64,000 nucleotides of DNA, taken from Pseudo-nitzschia pungens. Lineage: Eukaryota; Bacillariophyta; Bacillariophyceae; Bacillariales; Bacillariaceae. This document shows, in pieces, positions 6,950-59,424 of the stretch. Both the position numbers and the translations under genes were made by a program. The number at the start of each line of letters is the position of its first letter. Position 1 is the stretch's first letter. The notes beneath the pieces are model-generated. The model did no database searches and was not told the DNA's origin. It was given only the letters and a program-made list of their open reading frames with translations. The DNA is taken from the NCBI GenBank assembly GCA_037355855.1, contig CM074764.1:558001-622000 (forward strand), read 5' to 3'.

Positions 6950-7775
6950 CTTGACTTCTAATGTTTTCGGTATAAATAAATAACTATGAGCAATTTCGTT
7001 AGGAAGTCGAGTCCGTCGTCGGTCCGAATCTTCGAGGATAGGTGAGGAGGATCGAGGATGATGATTGTTGGAGCAGTGCTGCGGTGTGTGTCTCTGTGTC
7101 AGTAATTCGATTCAACACCAACAGGCAATAAGCGCACGAAAAGATGATTCGCGGTTTCCCGTTAAATCACAAGGTATCATTTTTGGGAAACATCATCCTG
7201 GAAGTTTCGTATTGTTTGTGCGTGTTGGGTGAATTTTGATGGTTTCTACTGACGTCGTTGGAGCATGCGTGTCAGTGTAGACCGTCGCGCAAACAATCCG
7301 GGACCGAAAAGTATTCGGGATTGATTAGTATTTTCCTCTTTGGCCAGGTACATGTAGTATCATAAGATAAGTAGATATTAATATACATTTAGTAGGTATG
7401 GAGGGAAAGACCCTATCCGATTCATTCGTTCCCCCCCTTTTCGAAATCCAAAACTTCCAAACCCTAGAGTTTAGCAAATGCAGGCCATACCGGGTAGCAA
7501 ACCTACCGGTAACCTTTTAAGGTTACCTTTTGTGCTTTTTCGAATCCCATCCACCAAAAAGTGTTAAATGTAAACTGCCAAGAGGTTTGTATCTGTCGGC
7601 AACAATAACTTCACAACAGAGGTAAATTACAACGGCACTCGTACCAGGTGCAACATCGTCAGTACTTTCAACTTTTTGACAAGGCGCAATCGGACCTGAC
7701 AGTCCCATCGATCCGAACTAGAGGCGCAGAAGGCCAAAGAAGCGATACGATAGATACGATAGGATACAACCAACA
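6950..7775. other. Divergent intergenic (promoter) region
   Basis: Separates the minus-strand plastid protein from CLP1 on the plus strand. It carries a palindromic GGTAACC...GGTTACC element at about 7507-7527, one instance of the motif recurring through the window. No gene seen. Confidence 0.5.
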
Positions 7776-9545
7776 ATGGCATCCAATAGCGGAGACGTCG
7801 CCATGGGCAGCAGCGGAGACCCAAGCAACAATAACAGCAACATTTCTACGGAGGGCCTTCCACCTCTGGCCCCTGGACGGGAACGCCATGTCCTCCAGAG
7901 ACGCGAGGAACTCCGCTTCGAGGTGACCTTTGGGGGATCCGCCTCGTCCACCCTGAGCAACGCCTCGGGAACCACCAGTTTTTGCCTGCAAAAAGGATCC
8001 TGCGAGCTCTACGGCTGCGAGCTGGCCCTGGGAAAGACCTACACGATTGCCCACGGGGGAATCAAGGCGGCCCTCTTCACCTGGCACGGCTGCGTCATTG
8101 ATCTGGGGGCCGCCGATGACGGAGAGGGATCGTCCTCTGCGGGGGTGGACTTTTTTTCCTACACCAGCGACGAAACGGACACCAATGTGGCCTTTGTCAA
8201 CACCCACGCGCAGCTGGAAGCGTTGCGGGACGATGCGGCGGCGGCCAATGCCAGCAGCAACAACAACAATAATAATAACAACAGTAACGGCAATAGCAGT
8301 GCTCCGCAGAACGACTCTCCCGAGCACAACGGGCAGGGTCCGCGGGTCATGGTGGTGGGACCTCCCGAGTGCGGAAAGACGACCCTCGCCAAAACGCTGG
8401 TGGCCTACGCCTGCAAGGTGGGACGGACTCCGCTCTACGTCGATCTGGATCCCATGGACAATTCCATCTCGGTTCCGGGATCCCTTGCGGTAGCGCCGAT
8501 GCACCAGTCCGCGGTGTCGGTAGAAACCTACGCTACCACAGGGCTTCCGATCCACGGAGGAGGTGCCAGCGTCGGTGCTGGAAACAGCAACAACAACAGC
8601 GGGTCTGCGACCGTCCATCCGCTCGTGGTTTACCACGGATCGACGGAAAAACTCCACCCCGATCTCTTTCGGGGACAGGTCGACTCGATTGCCAAGCGCA
8701 TCGAAGCGCGCCTGCGAGCGGACGATATGGCGCGATCCTCGGGAATCATCGTCAACACCAACGGGTGGATCCGGGACGAGGGATACGAGTGCCTGCTGCA
8801 CGCGGCCAAGGTCCTCAAGATTTCCGTTCTTCTGGTCCTCGGCCACGACCGTCTCTACAGCATGCTGACGAGCCACTACAAGAAACAACAAAAGCAGCGC
8901 GACGAGGCCAGCGCCAATGCCGCGGAGGGAGAGGGTGCAGCATCGTCGTCGTCGTCTCTTCCGCCGCCGCCTCCGAAACTCCTCAAGCTCCCACGCTCCG
9001 GGGGCGCCGTCAGCAGGCAGAGCCGCTTCGTGGCGAGTTGCAGATCCCGGGCCGTTAAGCGGTACTTTTACGGGGACCTGGTGGCCGATACGAGCGAGAC
9101 CGGCGCCGACGACCCGGCGGTGGCCGCCGCTGCCGGCAAGGTCTATCGCCTGGCCAACCAGCTCACTCCCTTTGCGGTCCAGGTCCCCTTTGGGGAGGCC
9201 CGGGTCTACAAGGTCAGCAGCATGGCCCTGAGCAACTCGCTGCTGCCGGTCAACGCGGCCCACCAGTCCACCGACGCCATCCAGCTGGCGGAGGTCGACA
9301 TTGTGGGGGATCCGGAGGCCGCCAAGTTGCTCCAGCACGCCCTCCTGGCGGTCTGTCACCCTTCGGCCGTTGAGGCCTACGAGGCATCGGGTGTGGGCCG
9401 GGATCTGGTCACGGCGGGGGTTGCGGGATTCTGCGCCGTCGACAAGGTCGTGACGGAGACCGACCAGCTCCACCTGCTGAGTCCCTGCGCGGGGGGGCTG
9501 CCCTCCAAGACATTTGTAGTGGGGGACATTACATGGATGGAATAA
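7776..9545 (+). CDS. CLP1, pre-mRNA cleavage complex / polynucleotide 5'-kinase family
   Basis: Single exon, 589 residues from an ATG. Family knowledge: CLP1 is part of cleavage factor II in mRNA 3'-end formation and, in animals, an RNA 5'-kinase in tRNA splicing. Seen: an N-terminal beta domain (about 45-150, LRFEVTFGGSAS), a Walker A loop GPPECGKTTLAK at about residue 196, PLYVDLDPMDNSIS shortly after, the central P-loop domain with GIIVNTNGWIRDEGYE, and a C-terminal domain ending GGLPSKTFVVGDITWME, which matches the usual CLP1 end. It is longer than the animal protein because of Asn-rich (about 160-180), Gly/Ser-rich and Ser/Pro-rich insertions. Kinase activity cannot be judged here; the P-loop lysine is present. 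Nuclear localisation is inferred from the family. Confidence 0.93.
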   Translation: MASNSGDVAMGSSGDPSNNNSNISTEGLPPLAPGRERHVLQRREELRFEVTFGGSASSTLSNASGTTSFCLQKGSCELYGCELALGKTYTIAHGGIKAALFTWHGCVIDLGAADDGEGSSSAGVDFFSYTSDETDTNVAFVNTHAQLEALRDDAAAANASSNNNNNNNNSNGNSSAPQNDSPEHNGQGPRVMVVGPPECGKTTLAKTLVAYACKVGRTPLYVDLDPMDNSISVPGSLAVAPMHQSAVSVETYATTGLPIHGGGASVGAGNSNNNSGSATVHPLVVYHGSTEKLHPDLFRGQVDSIAKRIEARLRADDMARSSGIIVNTNGWIRDEGYECLLHAAKVLKISVLLVLGHDRLYSMLTSHYKKQQKQRDEASANAAEGEGAASSSSSLPPPPPKLLKLPRSGGAVSRQSRFVASCRSRAVKRYFYGDLVADTSETGADDPAVAAAAGKVYRLANQLTPFAVQVPFGEARVYKVSSMALSNSLLPVNAAHQSTDAIQLAEVDIVGDPEAAKLLQHALLAVCHPSAVEAYEASGVGRDLVTAGVAGFCAVDKVVTETDQLHLLSPCAGGLPSKTFVVGDITWME

Positions 9546-14292: not shown

Positions 14293-17200
14293 TTATTTCT
14301 TGACTTTCTTGAGACGGGCGATCTTCTCCGCCTTGGCCTTGGCGGCGGCTTCCAACTTCTTTTGCCGGGCCTTGTTCTGGGCCTCGACCTGTTCCTCGAG
14401 TTCCCGCAGGATATTCTCCTTGTAGTCGTCGAAGCCCTCCGTCCATTCGGTGACACCCTGCTTTTCCACGACCCAGAGCGTGCAGTCGCACTCCTCGATC
14501 AGCCGCTGGTCGTGGGTGACGACGACGATGCCCCCGTTGAATTCGTTGATGGCATCGCACAGCGCGTCGATGGTTTCGATGTCGAGATTGTTGGTCGGTT
14601 CGTCGAGGAGCAAGATGTGGGGCATCTGGAGACTGAGCTCCACCAGGACGACACGGGCCTTTTGTCCTCCGGACAGGTCTCTCATGACTACCTCGTGGGC
14701 GTGGCCCTCCAATCCGTAGCGTCCGAGCCGGTTGCGGCAATTCTGGTAGTCCAGTTCGTTGAACCGGGATCGAAGGTGCTCGACGGGGGTCTTGCCCATG
14801 GGCAATCGGTCCACAAAGTGCTGGTTGTAGATTCCCATTCGCAGGCGGGGATTTCGTTTGACATCTCCCGTTGTGGGATTGATTTCTCCCGTCAACAATT
14901 TCAGGAGCGTCTAGCGATCCCAAAAAAAAATCGAACAACAAACAAATCGAAAAGCAAGGACCGGGAGAGAGAGAGAGAGAGAGAGAGAGGCAGAGAGAAA
15001 ACGAACGAAAAGAAAAAATACATGAGACAAATTGTATCGGCACCCATGGCAACCACTTCCATTTCATTCCATTCCATTCCATTCCGTTCCAAACGAAATC
15101 GAAAATTCCCCACTCACCGTTTTACCCGCACCGTTGGGTCCGACCACACAGATGCGGCTGTCCATGTCGATACCGAAATCGATCTTGTTGAAAATGACCG
15201 GGTGCTTGGGCGAGTACCGAAAGTGCACGTTGGTGACCTCCATGACGGGTCGGCCGAGCTCCGGCACCTCGGAGAATTCCAGCTTGACGGTGTACTCCTT
15301 GGGCCGCTTGATGAGTTCCTGGACCTCGGCGGCCTCGGTTCCGGCCGCGATGGCCTGGTTCTTCTTCTTTTGGCTGCGGGCACCGGCCTCCCGCTTGGAC
15401 TTGCTGTTCTTCATGGTCTCGGCGGCCTTGGACTTGGACTGCCCGCTTTTCTTGAGCTCGCGGAGTCGTTTCTCCTGTTTCTCCCAGGCCTTGATCTGCT
15501 GCTTGTGGCGGTCCGCCTCGGCCTTCTTGAAGCTGTCGTAGTTTCCCTTGTAGGAAATGAGCTTGAGGTCCTCGATGTGCAGGATTTCCTGGCACACGCT
15601 GTTCAAAAAGTCCTGGTCGTGGGAAACCACAAAGAGGGTCTTCTTCCAAGACTGGAGGTAGTCGTCGAGCCAGATGACGGCGTTGAGATCCAAATGGTTG
15701 GTCGGTTCGTCGAGCATGAGAAGGGTGGGTTCGACAAAGAGGGCCCGGGCCAGCGAGATGCGCATTCGCCAACCTCCCGAGAACATCTTGGTGGGCTTGG
15801 TCTGCATCTCGGTGGTGAATCCGAGACCGGAGAGGATTCCGTGGGCCTTGGCCTCCATGGAATCGGCCCCCATGTTGGCGAGTTCCTCCACGACGACGCC
15901 GAGGCGATCGATGGTCTCGTCGGACTCGTCTCCGGCGTCGACCTTGGCCATGAGTTCCTTTTCTTCCTCGACGAGGCTCCAGCGGACCTTGTCGGCCCGG
16001 AGGACTGCCTCGACGGCGGGCGTGTTGTCGGCGACGACCTCCTGCTCGACGTACAAGAAGTCGATGCGCGGTGGGAGCTTGAGGTCCCGGGAGGCAATCA
16101 TCTTGAGGAGGGTCGATTTACCCCTTCCGTTGGGCCCGACCAGTCCGTACCGGCGCCCGTGGGCAATGGTCAGTGACGCGTCCTTGAAGAGGATCTTTCC
16201 GGCGGCGGAGATGCTAAAGTTGGGAACGTTGATGTCCAGTGAGTTTTGCCACTGCGGGTCCTTTTCGTTGACGGCCGTCTGCGAGCAGGCAAACTGGGCT
16301 CCCTCGCGGCTGGCCTTGGCGGCGACCTTTTCGTACTCGGCGGCCCGAGCCGCGGCCTCTCGCTCCTTCATGAGGCGCTTGCGCTCCTTGTTGCTGAGTT
16401 TTTTGCCGTTCTTGCCGTACAGCAGCTGGTTGCGGAATGGAAAGGTCGAAATGTGTTGTTGTTGTTGTTGTTGTTGTTGTTGTGTGCGAATTGAATGGAT
16501 AATTTGAATCGGGTTTTGGTTGTGTTGGAAAAGCCATTGCCCATTTCGATCGCAAGAGAAGAGCATTAGTACGTGTAGTGGATGCACGCAAGAAATTAGA
16601 ATTACAATTACAATTACGATTACATTACAAACGATTCCGAAAACAAAGTGATTCGAAAACGCAACAAAGAACAAGTAAGAACGGTGCAGTGATTGGTGAG
16701 TCAGCGTTCCCCAGCAGAAAGAACCGAAAAATAATTACAATCAATCAACAATCGAATTATCTGAAGTCAGTCCAAACCGTGCTTCTTCTTCTTACCTTGC
16801 TCGGATCGTCTGCGGCCTCGGCTTCGGCGTCCTTCATTGCGTTGCTCTTGTCGGACCAGACCACGTCGTCGGGAGCACCGTACATGAGTTCCTCGCCGTC
16901 GGCGTCTCCACCGTCCTCCCCAACCAGCTCGTCGGGAGTCTCGGGAATCTCTTCCTTTGGAGCCGGTGACGGCGCTGCCTTGGCCGGTGCCCCTCCGTCC
17001 TCCTCCTGCCTGCTCCTTTTTCTTCATGGTCCGCCTCCATCTGCAGCTCGAACTTGGACTTTGTCTTGGAAGCCGGTGCTGCTGCTGCTTCCTCCTTGTC
17101 GCTGTCGCTGCTGTTGTCCTTTTCCTTCTTGCTCTTCTTTTCCTTCTTGCTCTTTTTCTCCTTCTTTTCTTTTTTCTCCTTCTTTTCCTTTTTCTCCTTC

Positions 17201-19415: not shown

Positions 19416-22400
19416 TCAAAAGGTTTCGTCGTCGTCGTCGTCGGTATCAGAGGCGATGGGGACAGAGCTGGGAAGGAGCACGTTGCTCATGAAATGGATG
19501 AGGCCGTCGCAAGCCTCTACATCCGCCTCGACAATCTCGGGGAGAAGATTGTTTCTTCGATTGACAGTTCCGAACTGGGTCCAGGGGCTTTGGTTGTTGC
19601 ACAAGGTGCGGGTAGACCCGCCCGAGATCATCTCGAGGGTACCTCGGCACTCCAAATCGTCCACACCGAGGATTCCCTCGGTGATGTGAAAGAGATAGAC
19701 AGAGTATAGTTCTTCCTCCGAAATCTGAGCGAGCAAATCGGCAACAATGTCGAAGCCAGTGTCTGGTGCAGCGAAGAGGGTGTAGTTCGACGGGAGCGCC
19801 GCATTCGTCAAGAAATTACAGAACTTATTGAAACCATCACGATTGCAAATGAGATCCACTGAAAGCGATGAACAATATCATCAAAACCGGGGGAGAATGT
19901 GAGTACGAGCATCAGCGTCCACCTTGGCGAGCTGTCGATGTTCATAGCGATAACTGCGAAAAACAACAGCAACAGCAAGTGAAATGGACGACAACAGTAG
20001 TGCGACGCACAACATTATTTGTTTCGACGTACCAATGTCATAGCATCCCGGTGAAGGCGAAGATGACGGTGACCCCGTCGGCAAAGATGATGGTGACTCC
20101 GTAGGAGCGGACGATGGTGACCTCGTTTCGCCGAATGCCAATGGCATCTCCGATGGCGAATCTGTCATCAGTGTTGGCCTTTGCGATTCTGTTGGCGCAA
20201 ACGACAAGGAAGGCAGGAACGATTCAGAGGGCTTTCCCGAGGGCATTGTTGATACCGACGGCGCTTCCGTAATGCACGATCGGAATGTGTTCAGAGAGAA
20301 GCAAATCTCTTGTGCATTTTGGTTCATTTTTTTAAACTTAGTGCAATCTACCGAGCCACACAAGGAGGGGTTCATACCTACAATTTTTCAGTATCCGCAT
20401 AGTGGTGAGATCGAAGATCAAACTCAATACAATCAAAGCAATCGAACTTCTCCGTAACATAACTCACTTAGATCGAGATAACGCAAATCCTCCAACAATT
20501 CAATCTCGTATGGAATAGATCCTGTCAACGTATTGTTGCCTTTATTGATCAATATTACCATGGTGTGAGGGATCAGCAGATTAGACGATGCAGTATTCAA
20601 ATCATTGAAGAGTCAACCGTAAGTCGGACGCCAATAGGCAAAACTCACTCAGATCTAGGTAAGTCATTCCACGTAATTCTCCAATTTCACTTGGAATGAA
20701 GCCTTGTATTCTGTTGGAACCTACAAAAGTCCGACAAACGACACTACAGTCAGAACGCATGCAGGATTTCAAAGAATAGGAAACGCGAAATGCAGACTTT
20801 ACTCCAAGAGATGGACGAAATCTTGGTTCAACGTACCTAATTCCATGTTTCTCATATTCTCTAGCAATCCAATGCTTGAGGGGATTGTACCAATCAATTG
20901 ATTTTGACCTGTGAATTCCACGTCAAAAATAAAACCCAAAGATGACAGGGCCATTTAGGACCGGTAGCATATCAGCATACTTGAGCTGCAAACGAAAACA
21001 TTGACTCACTTAAATTGATTTTTTCAAGCAAATTCAGAAACCCGATCTCGGTTGGAATAGTTCCCGTCAACGCTTCGTTCCCTGAACGTATACAAACGTG
21101 AAGAGCAGAAAACAATGGGAATGATACGAGAGAAGTTTAATTGAGCCAATACTTCCGACGCAAACATGGCAACAAACCAACCCACTTACCCAGATCAAGC
21201 TCGATCAATTCCTTAAATAGTCCAATTTGACTCGGGATCGCATACGACGGTTGAGGTTTTACAACAACTTTCGTTTCCAGATCGTCATCTCCGTCAACAG
21301 TGACGTCTATTGAGACACGAGGTCTGAAGTGCTTCATGACAATTGTGCAAACCGATTCTACTTCAACTTTTGCGGTCATGTTTTGGCCCATCATCATTTC
21401 ATTGACTGGAATGGATAACACCATTCTTTCACCTGGATCACACGTGAGAATCACGACTGGCGTGTCCCAGAAATTTTCGAAGTCGATGTACGTATCATTG
21501 GCCCATTCGGGGAGTTCTTTCCTCATCTCAGAGAGAGCAATTGTAAGAGTCACCAGGTCTTCATTTTTGCAATTAGGAAATCCTTTGGCTTCAAGTCCTG
21601 GATCCACTGTTTGACCAAATGCTGTTTCTAGATCAACTGCCATGCAATCGGGATGGGTGCATGTGGTAGCGCAGCAATCTCCACCATCGTATTCGTAGTC
21701 AAAAATATTCAACTCTTCGTTGCACCTGCCGTCGTTGGCAAACGATTCGCAGTGGAAAAATTTTGCTGTATCGTTATTATTGGGATTGTCGATGAAGTAC
21801 ACGTCGAGTGGTTTGTTGTATGGGGAAAGCCACGAGCTTTCAAAGGATGTTGAAATATCAAAGGAGTTTGTCTTCTCGGAATGTGCCAGCTCGGACTTAA
21901 TGTCGATGATGCAAGGGTCGATCTCTCCCCCATCGGACTCAAAGAAAATCCAACGTCGATCACGTTTGCAGTAAGCAAGCACGGTTGTGCTGGTTTCTTC
22001 CTTGTGGAACCCTCGATACATTTGTCTCCCATCGTTCGAATCACCTGTATACTGGTAGCAACCACTTTGGTCCTGCAAGCCCGATTCTTCATCGAATTGA
22101 ATTCGAAACATGTGAGTTGTCCACTCGGTATCCGAAACTTGTGTCGTCACAATCCCAATGCTTATGGTAAAGAGCACCACTCCCACGGTAAATGCGGATA
22201 TGAGATGAGACTGGAAAATCCAATTGTTTTCGATTTCCTCTTCGTCGGATTCGGATTCGGGTTCCGGTTCCGATTCTTGATGCAATTCGAATTCTTCATC
22301 GTCGTCGAGTTCAGTTCTGGTTCTCTTTTTCGGTACAATCCACCCAATTTTCCTCCTCCAAGGCCCTTTCCTACAATCCGTGAGTTTTCGTTCCTCGATG

Positions 22401-23329
22401 TACTCTGCAGCCTCTCTCAATGTGTCCCCATACTTTCCATCCTTTGCGATGTCGAACGCGACGTCATCAAAAGCAGAAATGAAATTCTGTTTGATTCGCG
22501 AACAGTACGCGGTGAGAGGAAAAAAACAAAATTGCGTGAATCGACACCGAACAAAGAAGAATAAGGCAGTGTGTGAGGCATGCTTTTGATGTTGTTGTGA
22601 ATGGTTTCTTTTGGTTCCGTTGCATACCGTACTACGACATTTGCATCCAGGCAACGAATGCAACGCGCATGGCACCGTTCCGTGTTTCCGTTCCGTGCTC
22701 CGATTTCATTCACTCACAACCGCCGCAAAGTTCAGAATAATGTCGATCACATCGTCGGACGTCATCACCAACAGAATCACGCACGAGCAGGCAAAAAAGC
22801 CCTGGACGCCCTTGACGACCGCGGCAATCCGTGCCCAGAACAGGTTGTTTTCTTTTTCCCTGCTGGCCGGATACTCGGCGCCCGGAAAGAACCGCACGGC
22901 ACTGGACAGATCGTTCAGACTCTCGTCGGAAAACAGGACGATCGCAAAGACGGCAAAGATCTGCGTGATGCGAACGATCCCGGTCGAGTTGGCCGGCAAC
23001 CAGTTGGCGTAGGTGGCATTCTGGGCAAACTTGTTGGGGTTGTCGACGTCCTCGTTGGCGCTCATGGGCCGGTACGCCTTGCTCAGAATGATGAGAAGGA
23101 TGAAGGACAGCTCAAAAAAGGCCACCATCCAGCCGTACCAGAACGGGAGGGACGATGCGTCGCCCTGCGCGATGAAAGAGAAACAATCCCTCGGGTACTT
23201 CCCGTCGGGATCGTCTCGGCAGTGGCAACAAGTTCCGTTGCAAGAATGTTTTTCGGTTGTTTCGGTTTTGAACTCGTCGTCATCCGAATCATTGGAATCA
23301 GAAGGAAGCCAGTTTGGTCGAATGGCCAT
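19416..23329 (-). CDS. Multi-pass membrane protein with LNR, exon-per-repeat LRRs and a FAS1 domain
   Basis: Eight exons reconstructed: 23329-22718, 22486-21190, 21081-21010, 20908-20837, 20720-20649, 20539-20468, 20377-20033, 19858-19416; 994 residues. From exon 2 on, every intron is phase 1 and the four LRR exons are each exactly 72 bp (24 residues). Membrane segments appear near 65-83, 118-138, 170-195 and 298-320. After these comes a Notch-like LNR segment (about 446-478, FANDGRCNEEL...DYEYDGGDCC), then LRRs (about 615-732, pattern N-x-L-x-G-x-IP-x-EIG-x-L), a Ser/Pro/Thr-rich linker typical of diatoms, and a fasciclin FAS1 domain (about 848-985, TLFAAPDTGF...LIHFMSNVLLPSS). The role is probably cell-surface adhesion or recognition, by inference from domains. 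The exact splice sites of exons 1-2 and 6 are the least certain. Confidence 0.82.
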
Positions 23330-43996: not shown

Positions 43997-45408
<1,412 letters not shown>

Positions 45409-56376: not shown

Positions 56377-57771
56377 CTACCGGTGCCGGTTTGGGTGGGG
56401 TGCTCTCGGCTCGCAGTGGCGCTCGCAGTGGCGCTCGCACTCGCGGTGGCGCTCCGCTTGGCCCGGTGCAAGACAAACTCGGACGGGCAGGGGGCACCGC
56501 CCCCCTCTTCCCCAAAGCCCCGGCGACGGTCGGCAAATCCGCCAACGTCGCCCCTGGGCGTGACGACCGCCATGAGCGCGTCGGGAGGATTGGCAGCGAA
56601 TGTGCTTTGCGACGAGCAGGGACGCCTCGGTCTCGGTCTGGTGCAGCGCGTGCCGGAGTGCCAGCACCCCTGCTCGTGCCCCGGAAGCTCTTGCGTCCCC
56701 GTGCGGAGCGCCGCCGCTTGCGCTCGACCGCAGCTCCCTCTTGCGGGCCACCAGGAATCGTCCGACGTGGTTGTTGAAGGCGGCCGACGGCGAAGCCAGC
56801 GCCGGTGCGGAGCAACGCGACGATGACGATGACGAGGACAACGGGGACAGGGACCGGTCCGATACCACCGTGCCCCCGAACTGGTGAATGAGCCGTTTTG
56901 TGGATTCCGCCGCCCCCGACACTGTCGTCGTCGTCGTCGTCGTCGCTGTCGACGTTGCGAGCAACCGATCGTCCACGACGTGGAGACAGGGCAGCTCCAG
57001 GGGGTCCGTCAATGGTTCCTCTTCCCCGAGGAGGCTGCCCCCGTGGACAAAAATCAGAAATGCGGGAGGAATCCGTCGGGAGTTTCCGTTGCCGCTGCCA
57101 TTGGAAGGTAGCAAGGGGAGGAGCGCCGCGACCCCCGCGGCCTGTCCCACGGCAAGGATTCCCCAGAACGGCGAGGACGCCCAGACCTGTCGCAGGAGCA
57201 ACAGGGAGGCGTCCAAACCGACGTAGTGGGGAGGAGGCGCTGGTTCTGGTGATGGTGCTTTGCCCGTGGTTTCCGTTGCCGTTTCCTCGCGTAGATCTTC
57301 ATCCTCTGCTATTGGTTCGTATTCATTCGAATCTTTGCTGCGGGCTGGTGGTTGGTTCATTTCGTCGCCGTCGCTGTCGCTGTTGCTTTCCGATCCATCT
57401 CGCGTCCCTGACGAATGCGGGAACAAAGCGGTCTCTGCCTTGGTCTCGGTGTTGGTTTCCCACCACGCTCGAGGGGGATGATCCCTAAAGGCGTTCCTGG
57501 GCCGGACGGGATCGTCGCTCTTGCAGTCGCGTCTCGATGACTCCGCATCAAAATTTGAAGCAGAATTTGAAGCAGAATTTGAAGTGGAATTGGAATCGAA
57601 ACCCGAACCGATCGAATCCTTCACAATCAGGGGGGCGTCGACAAAGACCAGATCGATGCCGTGCTTTTGATACAGTTGGGTTCCCAGCGAATCCATTGCT
57701 CGGCTGAGCTCCATCGAATTCGATCCCGCGTCGTGGAGGCACAGCACCCGGAGCAACGACGACGATGCCAT
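56377..57771 (-). CDS. FSH1/serine-hydrolase-like protein lacking the nucleophile serine; C-terminal frame uncertain
   Basis: Open frame of 464 codons from ATG at 57771. The start LRVLCLHDAGSNSMELSRAM and IDLVFVDAPLIV matches the FSH1 serine hydrolase family (alpha/beta fold). In the nucleophile-elbow position, where family members have G-x-S-x-G, this protein has ILAVGQAAG: Gly (codon 57147-57145, residue about 209) replaces Ser. The usual later Gly-Gly-His is also not seen; the sequence reads QFGGTVVSDRS. A long Asp/Ser/Glu-rich insertion separates the first and second parts. After about residue 350 (VGRFLVARKREL) the frame becomes Arg/His-rich, whereas other frames look more protein-like (DALMAVVTPRGD; DDESASDQPSGAK before a stop at 56232), so one or more frameshifts near the 3' end are likely. 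Confidence 0.65.
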   Translation of the reverse strand: MASSSLLRVLCLHDAGSNSMELSRAMDSLGTQLYQKHGIDLVFVDAPLIVKDSIGSGFDSNSTSNSASNSASNFDAESSRRDCKSDDPVRPRNAFRDHPPRAWWETNTETKAETALFPHSSGTRDGSESNSDSDGDEMNQPPARSKDSNEYEPIAEDEDLREETATETTGKAPSPEPAPPPHYVGLDASLLLLRQVWASSPFWGILAVGQAAGVAALLPLLPSNGSGNGNSRRIPPAFLIFVHGGSLLGEEEPLTDPLELPCLHVVDDRLLATSTATTTTTTTVSGAAESTKRLIHQFGGTVVSDRSLSPLSSSSSSSRCSAPALASPSAAFNNHVGRFLVARKRELRSSASGGAPHGDARASGARAGVLALRHALHQTETEASLLVAKHIRCQSSRRAHGGRHAQGRRWRICRPSPGLWGRGGRCPLPVRVCLAPGQAERHRECERHCERHCEPRAPHPNRHR

Positions 57772-59424
57772 TATTTGTTGTTGTTGATAATGCTGATGCT
57801 GATGTAAAATGCACGGTGCGTATCTGCAGTTAGGTGCTGATCTCTGCCGGAATTCGAATTCGATCGATCCGCTGTTGCGCTGCTCCGTCCGGATCCGATG
57901 CTGTTTCGATTCGAGACCCTGCTTTTTTCGTACCGTGCCGTAAGGTTTACCAGGTACTGTATTGTTTGTTGGCGTTCGAAGGGGAATGCGGTATGTCCCC
58001 GTTGCGTTGTTAGTAAGTTAGCTAGTTGGTTACGCGTACTCGTACCGGTTCTTAGCGAGCTAGTTGACGGCACCCGAAAGTCTACCTATTGCGGTGATGA
58101 GCTTGGTAGTGTTTGGATGCTCATAACATAACCTGCGAAATGCTGTGTTGCGCCTATTGACGATATTACTAACACAACATGTATTTCAATACGGTAAGAG
58201 TGAGGTTACTTCTGTTCACCAAGGCTTACGCGTAGTTGAGAACTACAGAAGGGACGATCCGTCCTCAAACGTACGCTACCGTACGCGAGGAAGCGCAGGG
58301 TTCAATAATGGATAACAGCGATAGTATCTAATAGTAGTACTAGGCCTAGTAGTACTACGAGCAGGGACAACTAATGGAGAAAAGGAGCTGCAACAAGAAC
58401 AAGCAGTGGTGGTGGCAGCAGCAGCAAGAACAAGACTTAATTTTCTACACTTGTAGTATCATCATACATGCAAATAGCAGTGATGTAGAGTACTAGTTTT
58501 ACTACTACTATTGTACTAGTTACATGGGAAATCAGAATCCTCAAAATAGTCTAGTAGTAGTAGGAAAGCCCGGGAAGAAAAGGCATGATTGTACTACACA
58601 GACGTCTTGCTTGCTTCGTGGTTCTTGCATGCATGCAATCGGTCATTTGCTTCTTGGTGGGTTCACTTTGCAATCCCAGAAATCCCCCCTTGCACACTCT
58701 AGAAGTACTACTACTACTATTAGTAGTACTTGTACTACTAATAGTATTAGCAGCTACTACTACTAGTAGTACTGCATCCATCAGATCACTAATTATTCCT
58801 ACTACAAGTAATAGTACTAGTACTACAAAAGAGTCAGTCAGTGGTGGTCCTCCATTGCCAAGCCGGAGATTGGTATGAGCCTTTCCTTCTTGCAATCAAT
58901 CAAGAAATTGTTGAATCAATCAAGAAATTGTTGAATCAATCAAGAAATTGTTGAATCAATCAAGAAATTGTTGTTCTGCACGAACCATGTCAAGAGCTAC
59001 ACCTTGTACGTACTAGTAATAGTATTACAAGTAGTAGTAGTACTAGTAGTACCACCAGTATGAAGAAATAGTGGCGAGACTACCTCTGGTATTACGGTAA
59101 TTATCCGAAGTAAAAGAAGCACGGACAAAAACAACCCACGAATTTAGGTCGTACGTAGTACGTGAAAAAAACATGAATGTAGGTCGTACAAGTACGAACG
59201 TTGTCACGTACTTGTACGTATGTTCGTGGTGGGGGAGCATCGGGATTGCAACCTCATGAAGCCCATACTAACCTTACTGCTGCATGACATGACCTTTTTT
59301 TCTTCTTCAAGCACATTGCACTCCTCGTCGTTGGACGCATCAAATTCTCACAACACTACACACTTTCAAACAATTCTCAATACATAGGAACAATCAAAGT
59401 TCTCGTCAAAGTTCTCGTAAACAT
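57772..59424. other. Repeat-rich intergenic region
   Basis: No gene supported. TAG/CTAG tracts at about 58320-58360, 58535-58565, 58700-58835 and 59005-59062; a 20-bp tandem repeat listed separately; GTAC/CGTACTTG repeats near 59150-59225. Confidence 0.55.
58894..58973. repeat. Four exact tandem copies of a 20-bp unit
   Basis: Unit AATCAATCAAGAAATTGTTG repeated four times head to tail without a mismatch. It is noncoding as far as can be seen. Confidence 0.95.

Follow-up and report, generated by a model that had tools for sequence, protein, structure and literature searches.

Little is known of the means by which diatoms recognise mates, bacteria, viruses and parasites. A gene on the minus strand of the window (the whole stretch of 64,000 nucleotides analysed, C7:558001-622000) raises the question whether such recognition could be carried by surface proteins whose leucine-rich repeats (LRRs) are encoded one per exon, and whether a C-terminal fasciclin (FAS1) domain belongs to the same protein. 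The genome searched comprises 66.9 Mb in 28 contigs. In our reading the gene is likely a short, FAS1-bearing member, with an old repeat array, of a family of surface recognition receptors built from exon cassettes.

Structure of the gene

A gene of eight exons, encoding 994 amino acids, was rebuilt from splice sites between 23329 and 19416 (minus strand). Each modelled intron begins with GT and ends with AG; intron 1 (231 bp) is in phase 0, introns 2-6 (lengths below) and intron 7 (174 bp) are in phase 1. From the N-terminus the protein is predicted to consist of membrane segments followed by a cysteine-rich ectodomain, which includes an LNR-like motif, then by four LRRs of 24 residues, a Ser/Pro linker and, at the C-terminus, a FAS1 domain. 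The features of the gene are:

22718..23329, minus strand: exon 1, 612 bp, ending in phase 0, with the N-terminus and hydrophobic membrane segments (gene model, hydropathy)
21190..22486, minus strand: exon 2, 1297 bp, ending in phase 1 (gene model)
21644..21754, minus strand: LNR-like cysteine motif, about residues 449-485 (PF00066 below cut-off)
20378..21189, minus strand: LRR exon/intron stretch including introns 2-6 of 108, 101, 116, 109 and 90 bp (gene model)
21010..21081, minus strand: exon 3, 72-bp phase-1 LRR exon (gene model)
20837..20908, minus strand: exon 4, 72-bp phase-1 LRR exon (gene model)
20649..20720, minus strand: exon 5, 72-bp phase-1 LRR exon (gene model)
20468..20539, minus strand: exon 6, 72-bp phase-1 LRR exon (gene model)
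20033..20377, minus strand: exon 7, 345 bp, phase 1 on either side (gene model)
19416..19858, minus strand: exon 8, terminal, with the FAS1 domain and the stop codon (gene model, Pfam)

Four hydrophobic stretches were detected by hydropathy (residues 60-92, 113-139, 163-218 and 292-325), of which exon 1 encodes the first two and the beginning of the third. Exon 2 encodes an acidic loop, the membrane segment 292-325, the family ectodomain, the LNR-like motif and the end of a first LRR, additional to those of the 72-bp exons, while exon 7 carries the LRR cap, the Ser/Pro linker (about 20046-20267) and the first FAS1 residues. The four consecutive 72-bp phase-1 LRR exons of the original prediction are thus recovered as exons 3-6. 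It had also placed the linker and the FAS1 domain on phase-1 cassettes, which holds for the linker exon (phase 1-1), whereas the FAS1 exon is terminal and therefore no symmetrical cassette.

The LRRs of the protein score above the Pfam cut-offs (LRR_8, PF13855, 44.8 bits against 27; LRR, PF00560, 34.9 bits against 20.6), as does Fasciclin (PF02469, residues 869-977, 30.5 bits against 22), which reaches 35.3 bits in a genome-wide profile scan. With 11.4 bits (E 0.45), the match to the Notch LNR profile (PF00066) falls short of the cut-off of 21.2, and the motif is therefore named LNR-like; the "Notch-like LNR" predicted before was overstated. Matches to PF00066 up to E 1 occur in 16 of 50 aligned family members (best E 0.017), and the six cysteines of the motif are listed as invariant across the 50 aligned rows. 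Pfam detected neither a kinase nor another signalling domain in the protein up to E 1.

LRR exon arrays in the gene family

The intron cuts the repeat at residue 1, within the beta-strand segment, so that each exon opens with the last part of a strand segment and closes with the first part of the following one. When LRR-like stretches between an acceptor AG and a donor GT[AG].G were collected from the gene and 20 paralogue loci, 214 candidates were exactly 72 bp long, against one of 90 bp, and the antisense control gave none. The next commonest lengths in the range of 60-99 bp were 70 bp (41), 76 bp (28) and 97 bp (21), all of which begin at 72-bp candidates and represent second GTs beside those exons. 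The exon length of 72 bp is not due to chance.

With residues 1-637 as query, 53 further places of the ectodomain family were found, not every one of which is intact (one holds a stop), and which together with the gene itself make at least 54; since 69 of 123 candidates were scored, the 53 are a lower bound. In the 28 genes examined (the gene itself, 20 with longer stretches and seven with 1.5 kb of flank), at least one 72-bp phase-1 LRR exon is present in 26, and most LRRs of the family are encoded by such exons. The other two, L041 and L048, are close paralogues whose LRR runs are mostly intronless, with an in-frame spacing of 72 bases. The highest counts of 72-bp exons were obtained for L052 (22), L054 (20), L051 and L058 (18 each, the latter in 223-bp units), followed by L043, L055 and L057 (17 each), L053 (14) and L050 (12), and the lowest for L040 (2) and L042 (1); for some arrays the count stops at the edge of the analysed stretch and the array continues beyond. 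Three further array exons of L050 (near 4126, 4323 and 4519) are apparently 75 bp long, with an extra codon directly after the acceptor, and thus keep the frame. With a 24-residue LRR as query 678 candidate places were found genome-wide, and all 150 that were scored matched; the open frame is shorter than 100 amino acids in 147 of these.

Several arrays contain higher-order repeats, with a spacing of exactly 835 bp on C9 (seven successive places, 2816082-2821160), taken to be of recent origin, a spacing of 1323 bp on C11 and a period of two exons in L054. At L058, identity is 99% among the introns and 91% among the exons. No 23-residue exon sequence is common to different genes among the 214 exons (197 distinct sequences) of the gene and the 20 loci.

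The original prediction had held that the exon structure permits gain or loss of repeats without a frame change. For the family this is well founded, as loci carry between 0 and 22 of the exons, with identical units and higher-order repeats. In the gene itself, however, the four LRR exons are about 50% identical to each other and their introns show a similarity no more than chance-like, so recent gain or loss is unsupported there. Repeat change without frame shift is borne out by the relatives rather than by this gene.

Diversity could also arise at the level of the transcript. As the LRR exons have phase 1 on both sides and a length of 72 bp (in three cases apparently 75 bp), any subset of exons would stay in frame, and alternative use of LRR exons has been reported for ROCO genes of Ectocarpus (PMC11378527, partial text), where exon choice by splicing has been proposed as a source of diversity. 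However, 168 of 184 array introns would introduce an in-frame stop upon retention, which would truncate the protein, and we consider it unlikely that splicing, rather than change of the array itself, is the main source of diversity here.

Amino acid change within the arrays

Exons within one gene were compared with each other, and their differences counted, in those 17 of the 21 loci that have at least three such exons; the other four, with fewer than three, were dropped. Eleven arrays with an intron divergence below 0.2 were treated as homogenised, and residues 2, 4, 20, 21 and 23 were taken as concave. In all eleven, pN(concave)/pS exceeds one, with values of 1.4-26 and lower bootstrap limits of 1.11-11.6 (the bootstrap version adds a small constant, which gives 25 for L050). 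These are simple counts rather than a full codon model, uncorrected for multiple hits, and exons within a gene are non-independent. The non-concave residues stay below the synonymous sites in eight homogenised arrays (0.23-0.95) and are slightly above them in L055, L056 and L058 (1.05-1.38). Averaged over the eleven arrays, diversity is 0.57-0.80 at residues 1, 2, 4, 20, 21 and 23 and at most 0.38 elsewhere.

In the six most divergent arrays, that is the gene itself, L039, L043, L051, L053 and L054, the concave ratio is 0.59-0.97 at synonymous differences of 0.64-0.82. The value of the gene is 0.77 with synonymous sites near saturation and therefore gives no signal of diversification. Together with the exon identity of about 50%, this led us to reject the gene as a fast-changing array.

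The starts and ends of the exons are more divergent than the introns in all eleven homogenised arrays. A regional mutation hot spot was rejected, as the intron bases adjacent to the exons are less divergent than the exon ends in each of the eleven, and a single type of base change makes up at most 27% of the differences.

The position of these changes bears on two further explanations. The repeats could mainly be structural or adhesive spacers in the cell wall or a biofilm, whose number tunes length as in adhesins, with FAS1 as the working end. The presence of FAS1 and the long Ser/Pro linker would fit such a spacer, and three FAS1 proteins belong to a set of genes whose raphid-diatom signature has been ascribed to adhesion and motility (PMC7335047, partial text). 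However, the change within the arrays clusters on that face of the solenoid which is turned to the ligand, a pattern for which a spacer would have no need, and of the 54 family places this gene is the only one to have one of the genome's 62 FAS1 places within 15 kb downstream on the same strand. Mainly structural repeats are rather improbable.

Somewhat less probable still is a passive, minisatellite-like duplication, in which surface residues vary merely because they are unconstrained and no recognition is involved. It is suggested by the near-identical units and higher-order repeats and by the lack of pN above pS in the six divergent arrays. Relaxed constraint by itself, however, should stay at or below the neutral rate, whereas the concave codons outpace both synonymous sites and introns in every one of the 11 homogenised arrays, and the three odd L050 exons keep the frame by exactly one extra codon.

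The FAS1 domain and its distribution

The FAS1 domain begins in the linker exon 7 and continues across the junction GCYDI/VDLIC (slash, splice junction) into exon 8. Homology spans this last junction (GCYDI/VDLICNRDGF in the gene, GCYSLAEIICEQNDF in P0005). The homologue search was run against a database of 5.8 billion proteins, with 7988 candidates scored and 60 homologues listed. Five of the 60 listed homologues (P0003, P0005, P0006, P0009 and P0019) carry LRRs and PF02469 in one open frame; they lie on contigs of 3.0-3.7 kb, of either DNA or RNA, and their FAS1 domains are 26-31% identical to that of the gene. The closest relative among the listed homologues, P0001, is 61% identical; its JGI name, Psemu1, we take to stand for Pseudo-nitzschia multiseries, which makes a pennate diatom the most likely source of the gene.

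Because five of the 60 listed homologues carry both domains, FAS1 is very probably part of the gene, which is not alone in having the fusion. The combination predicted originally is therefore real, and its restriction to this genome was rejected. That the LRR and FAS1 exons are two genes joined by the model, or that the linker exon extends into intron 7 and the protein stops there before FAS1, is very improbable: such a read-through would give a very hydrophobic stretch followed by a stop, and a Ser/Pro-rich tail without FAS1 is found in the paralogue L039, but the FAS1 fold spans exons 7 and 8 with homology across the junction and both domains share a single open frame in the five homologues, so that the two-gene reading was rejected.

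When intron 7 (20032-19859, minus strand) is read through, the hydrophobic stretch (highest 19-residue mean 2.75) is followed by a basic tail before the stop. This could possibly represent an isoform without FAS1 or a chance product of the pyrimidine tract.

A search with FAS1 alone found three proteins, none of them listed with LRRs. Among the 21 loci the FAS1 profile found the domain in one, several loci ending inside an array. In a tree of the ectodomain with 82 rows (midpoint root for drawing only), a supported branch (27 rows, 99/97) sets off all six FAS1 rows, that of the gene among them, together with rows without FAS1, some of which are truncated and some of which have Ser/Pro tails. 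The FAS1 rows are scattered, and at least five changes of FAS1 presence are forced, in a clade that includes truncated rows.

Two homologues that fall within the FAS1 part of this tree, P0010 and P0012, have a cysteine-rich end resembling a C-type lectin, so that the C-terminal module may be exchangeable. A Lectin_C match (E 0.0006) is present in one of the 50 aligned members.

For the homologue P0003 a structure model gives pLDDT values of 85-95 for the LRR blocks, 26-30 for the linker, which is thus predicted to be disordered, and 61-89 for the FAS1 part; with a pTM of 0.41 the placing of the domains relative to each other is unreliable. Its best Foldseek matches are ectodomains of plant receptor LRRs.

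Comparison with known LRR systems

Plant LRR receptors (BRI1, FLS2, MIK2 and others) share the 24-residue plant-type LRR fold with the diatom proteins. They have one membrane segment, which follows the LRRs, whereas in the diatom gene several membrane segments precede the LRRs and, in contrast to the plant receptor kinases, no kinase was found. Closely similar repeats whose ligand-facing positions vary are also known from fungal NLR-type nonself-recognition genes, although these encode intracellular receptors with other repeat types, and lamprey VLR-type receptors are assembled somatically from LRR cassettes.

The nearest parallels are found in brown algae and in Tetrahymena. The brown-algal ones are the ROCO genes (LRR-ROC-COR), in which one LRR is encoded per 72-bp exon and exon shuffling, alternative splicing and diversifying selection on the concave face have been described (PMC11378527, partial text, where Zambounis et al. 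2012 is cited on these genes). Both families thus have one LRR per 72-bp exon and tandem arrays in a stramenopile host. In the same source the exon nucleotides 3-71 are counted as 23 residues and the exons are termed phase 2; as read here, this numbering gives a codon split at the exon ends identical to that of the diatom exons. The ROCO proteins are GTPases with ROC-COR, whereas ROC or COR was found neither among the six Pfam families listed up to E 1 for the full diatom protein nor among 25 of the 37 listed for the 50 aligned family members. Furthermore, the selected ROCO sites given there (14, 16, 18 and 19 of 23) lie within one exon, whereas the variable sites of the diatom family are at both exon ends, because the intron lies within the beta-strand segment.

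The LRR genes described in Tetrahymena number in the thousands, their exons being exactly 90 bp long and in phase 2, with a subtelomeric and pericentromeric bias and a link to retrotransposons (PMC6564038, partial text). The ciliate and the diatom are both single-celled, with long arrays of equal-length LRR exons, introns of the same phase and recurrent clonal expansion, but the diatom exons are 72 bp in phase 1 and known from at least 54 places. As far as these partial sources go, the diatom family differs from both systems by its membrane segments, the LNR-like motif, in this gene FAS1, and an intron elsewhere in the repeat; the differing intron position indicates an independent origin. It would be a further case of equal-length-exon LRR arrays beside brown algae and Tetrahymena.

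Of the 47 family places, out of 54, that are on contigs of known length, seven are no more than 100 kb away from an end, where a fraction of 0.039 would be expected (binomial P 0.002; contig ends need not be telomeres), which resembles the subtelomeric bias of the Tetrahymena genes.

Numerous or expanded LRR genes have been described in the diatoms Pseudo-nitzschia multistriata (PMC5485032), Seminavis robusta (PMC7335047) and Nitzschia putrida (PMC9054022), all consulted as partial texts. During sexual reproduction P. multistriata regulates LRR receptor-like genes, two of which have Ka:Ks above 1 (PMC5485032). One-LRR-per-exon arrays, concave diversification and an LRR-FAS1 fusion are not described in these partial texts, and our literature search found no account of such LRR exon arrays in diatoms.

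A possible role in surface recognition

Gene structure, domains, homologues, arrays and the concave excess of the paralogues are computed results, from which we infer splicing, location outside the cell, the mechanism of duplication, recognition and adhesion. The protein would consist of a multi-pass membrane part followed by a family-specific domain rich in cysteine, a short solenoid of LRRs, a stalk of flexible Ser/Pro sequence and FAS1, the parts after the membrane segments all on one side, which is most likely the cell exterior. In other branches of the family, units of exon plus intron were most likely copied in tandem by unequal crossing-over and gene conversion, the former being indicated by the higher-order repeats on C9, C11 and in L054. 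A putative binding strip would be formed by residues 20, 21 and 23 of one exon and residues 1, 2 and 4 of the next. As residue 1 is cut by the intron and the strips span exons, copying, losing or skipping one exon would create new binding strips with the frame unchanged, and the arrays would serve as evolvable surfaces for ligand recognition. In many of the sister genes the predicted binding face varies much more quickly than the remainder, which would fit a repertoire for recognition.

For the gene in the window, the LRRs are the probable binding site for a ligand or partner, and FAS1 probably serves for anchoring or adhesion to the matrix or cell wall; the surface adhesion or recognition role suggested originally is the best inference. 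That at least 50 surface receptors made from interchangeable LRR exon cassettes form a recognition system (self/non-self, mate or parasite), perhaps with variable splicing and separate from those of brown algae and ciliates, is possible, and we put it forward tentatively. Candidate surface receptors with recent in-frame repeat copying and surface-directed change provide genes and residues for testing.

Neighbouring genes in the window

A minus-strand open reading frame at 10655-11782 matches TPR_12 repeats strongly (E 1.7e-30); besides LRR exons, it is those encoding TPRs that are shuffled in brown algae (PMC11378527, partial text). Further neighbours are a CLP1 polyadenylation factor (7722-9542, plus strand), an ABC ATPase (15067-16734, minus strand), a glyceraldehyde-3-phosphate dehydrogenase (44479-45405, plus strand) and an FSH1-type serine hydrolase (56380-58017, minus strand).
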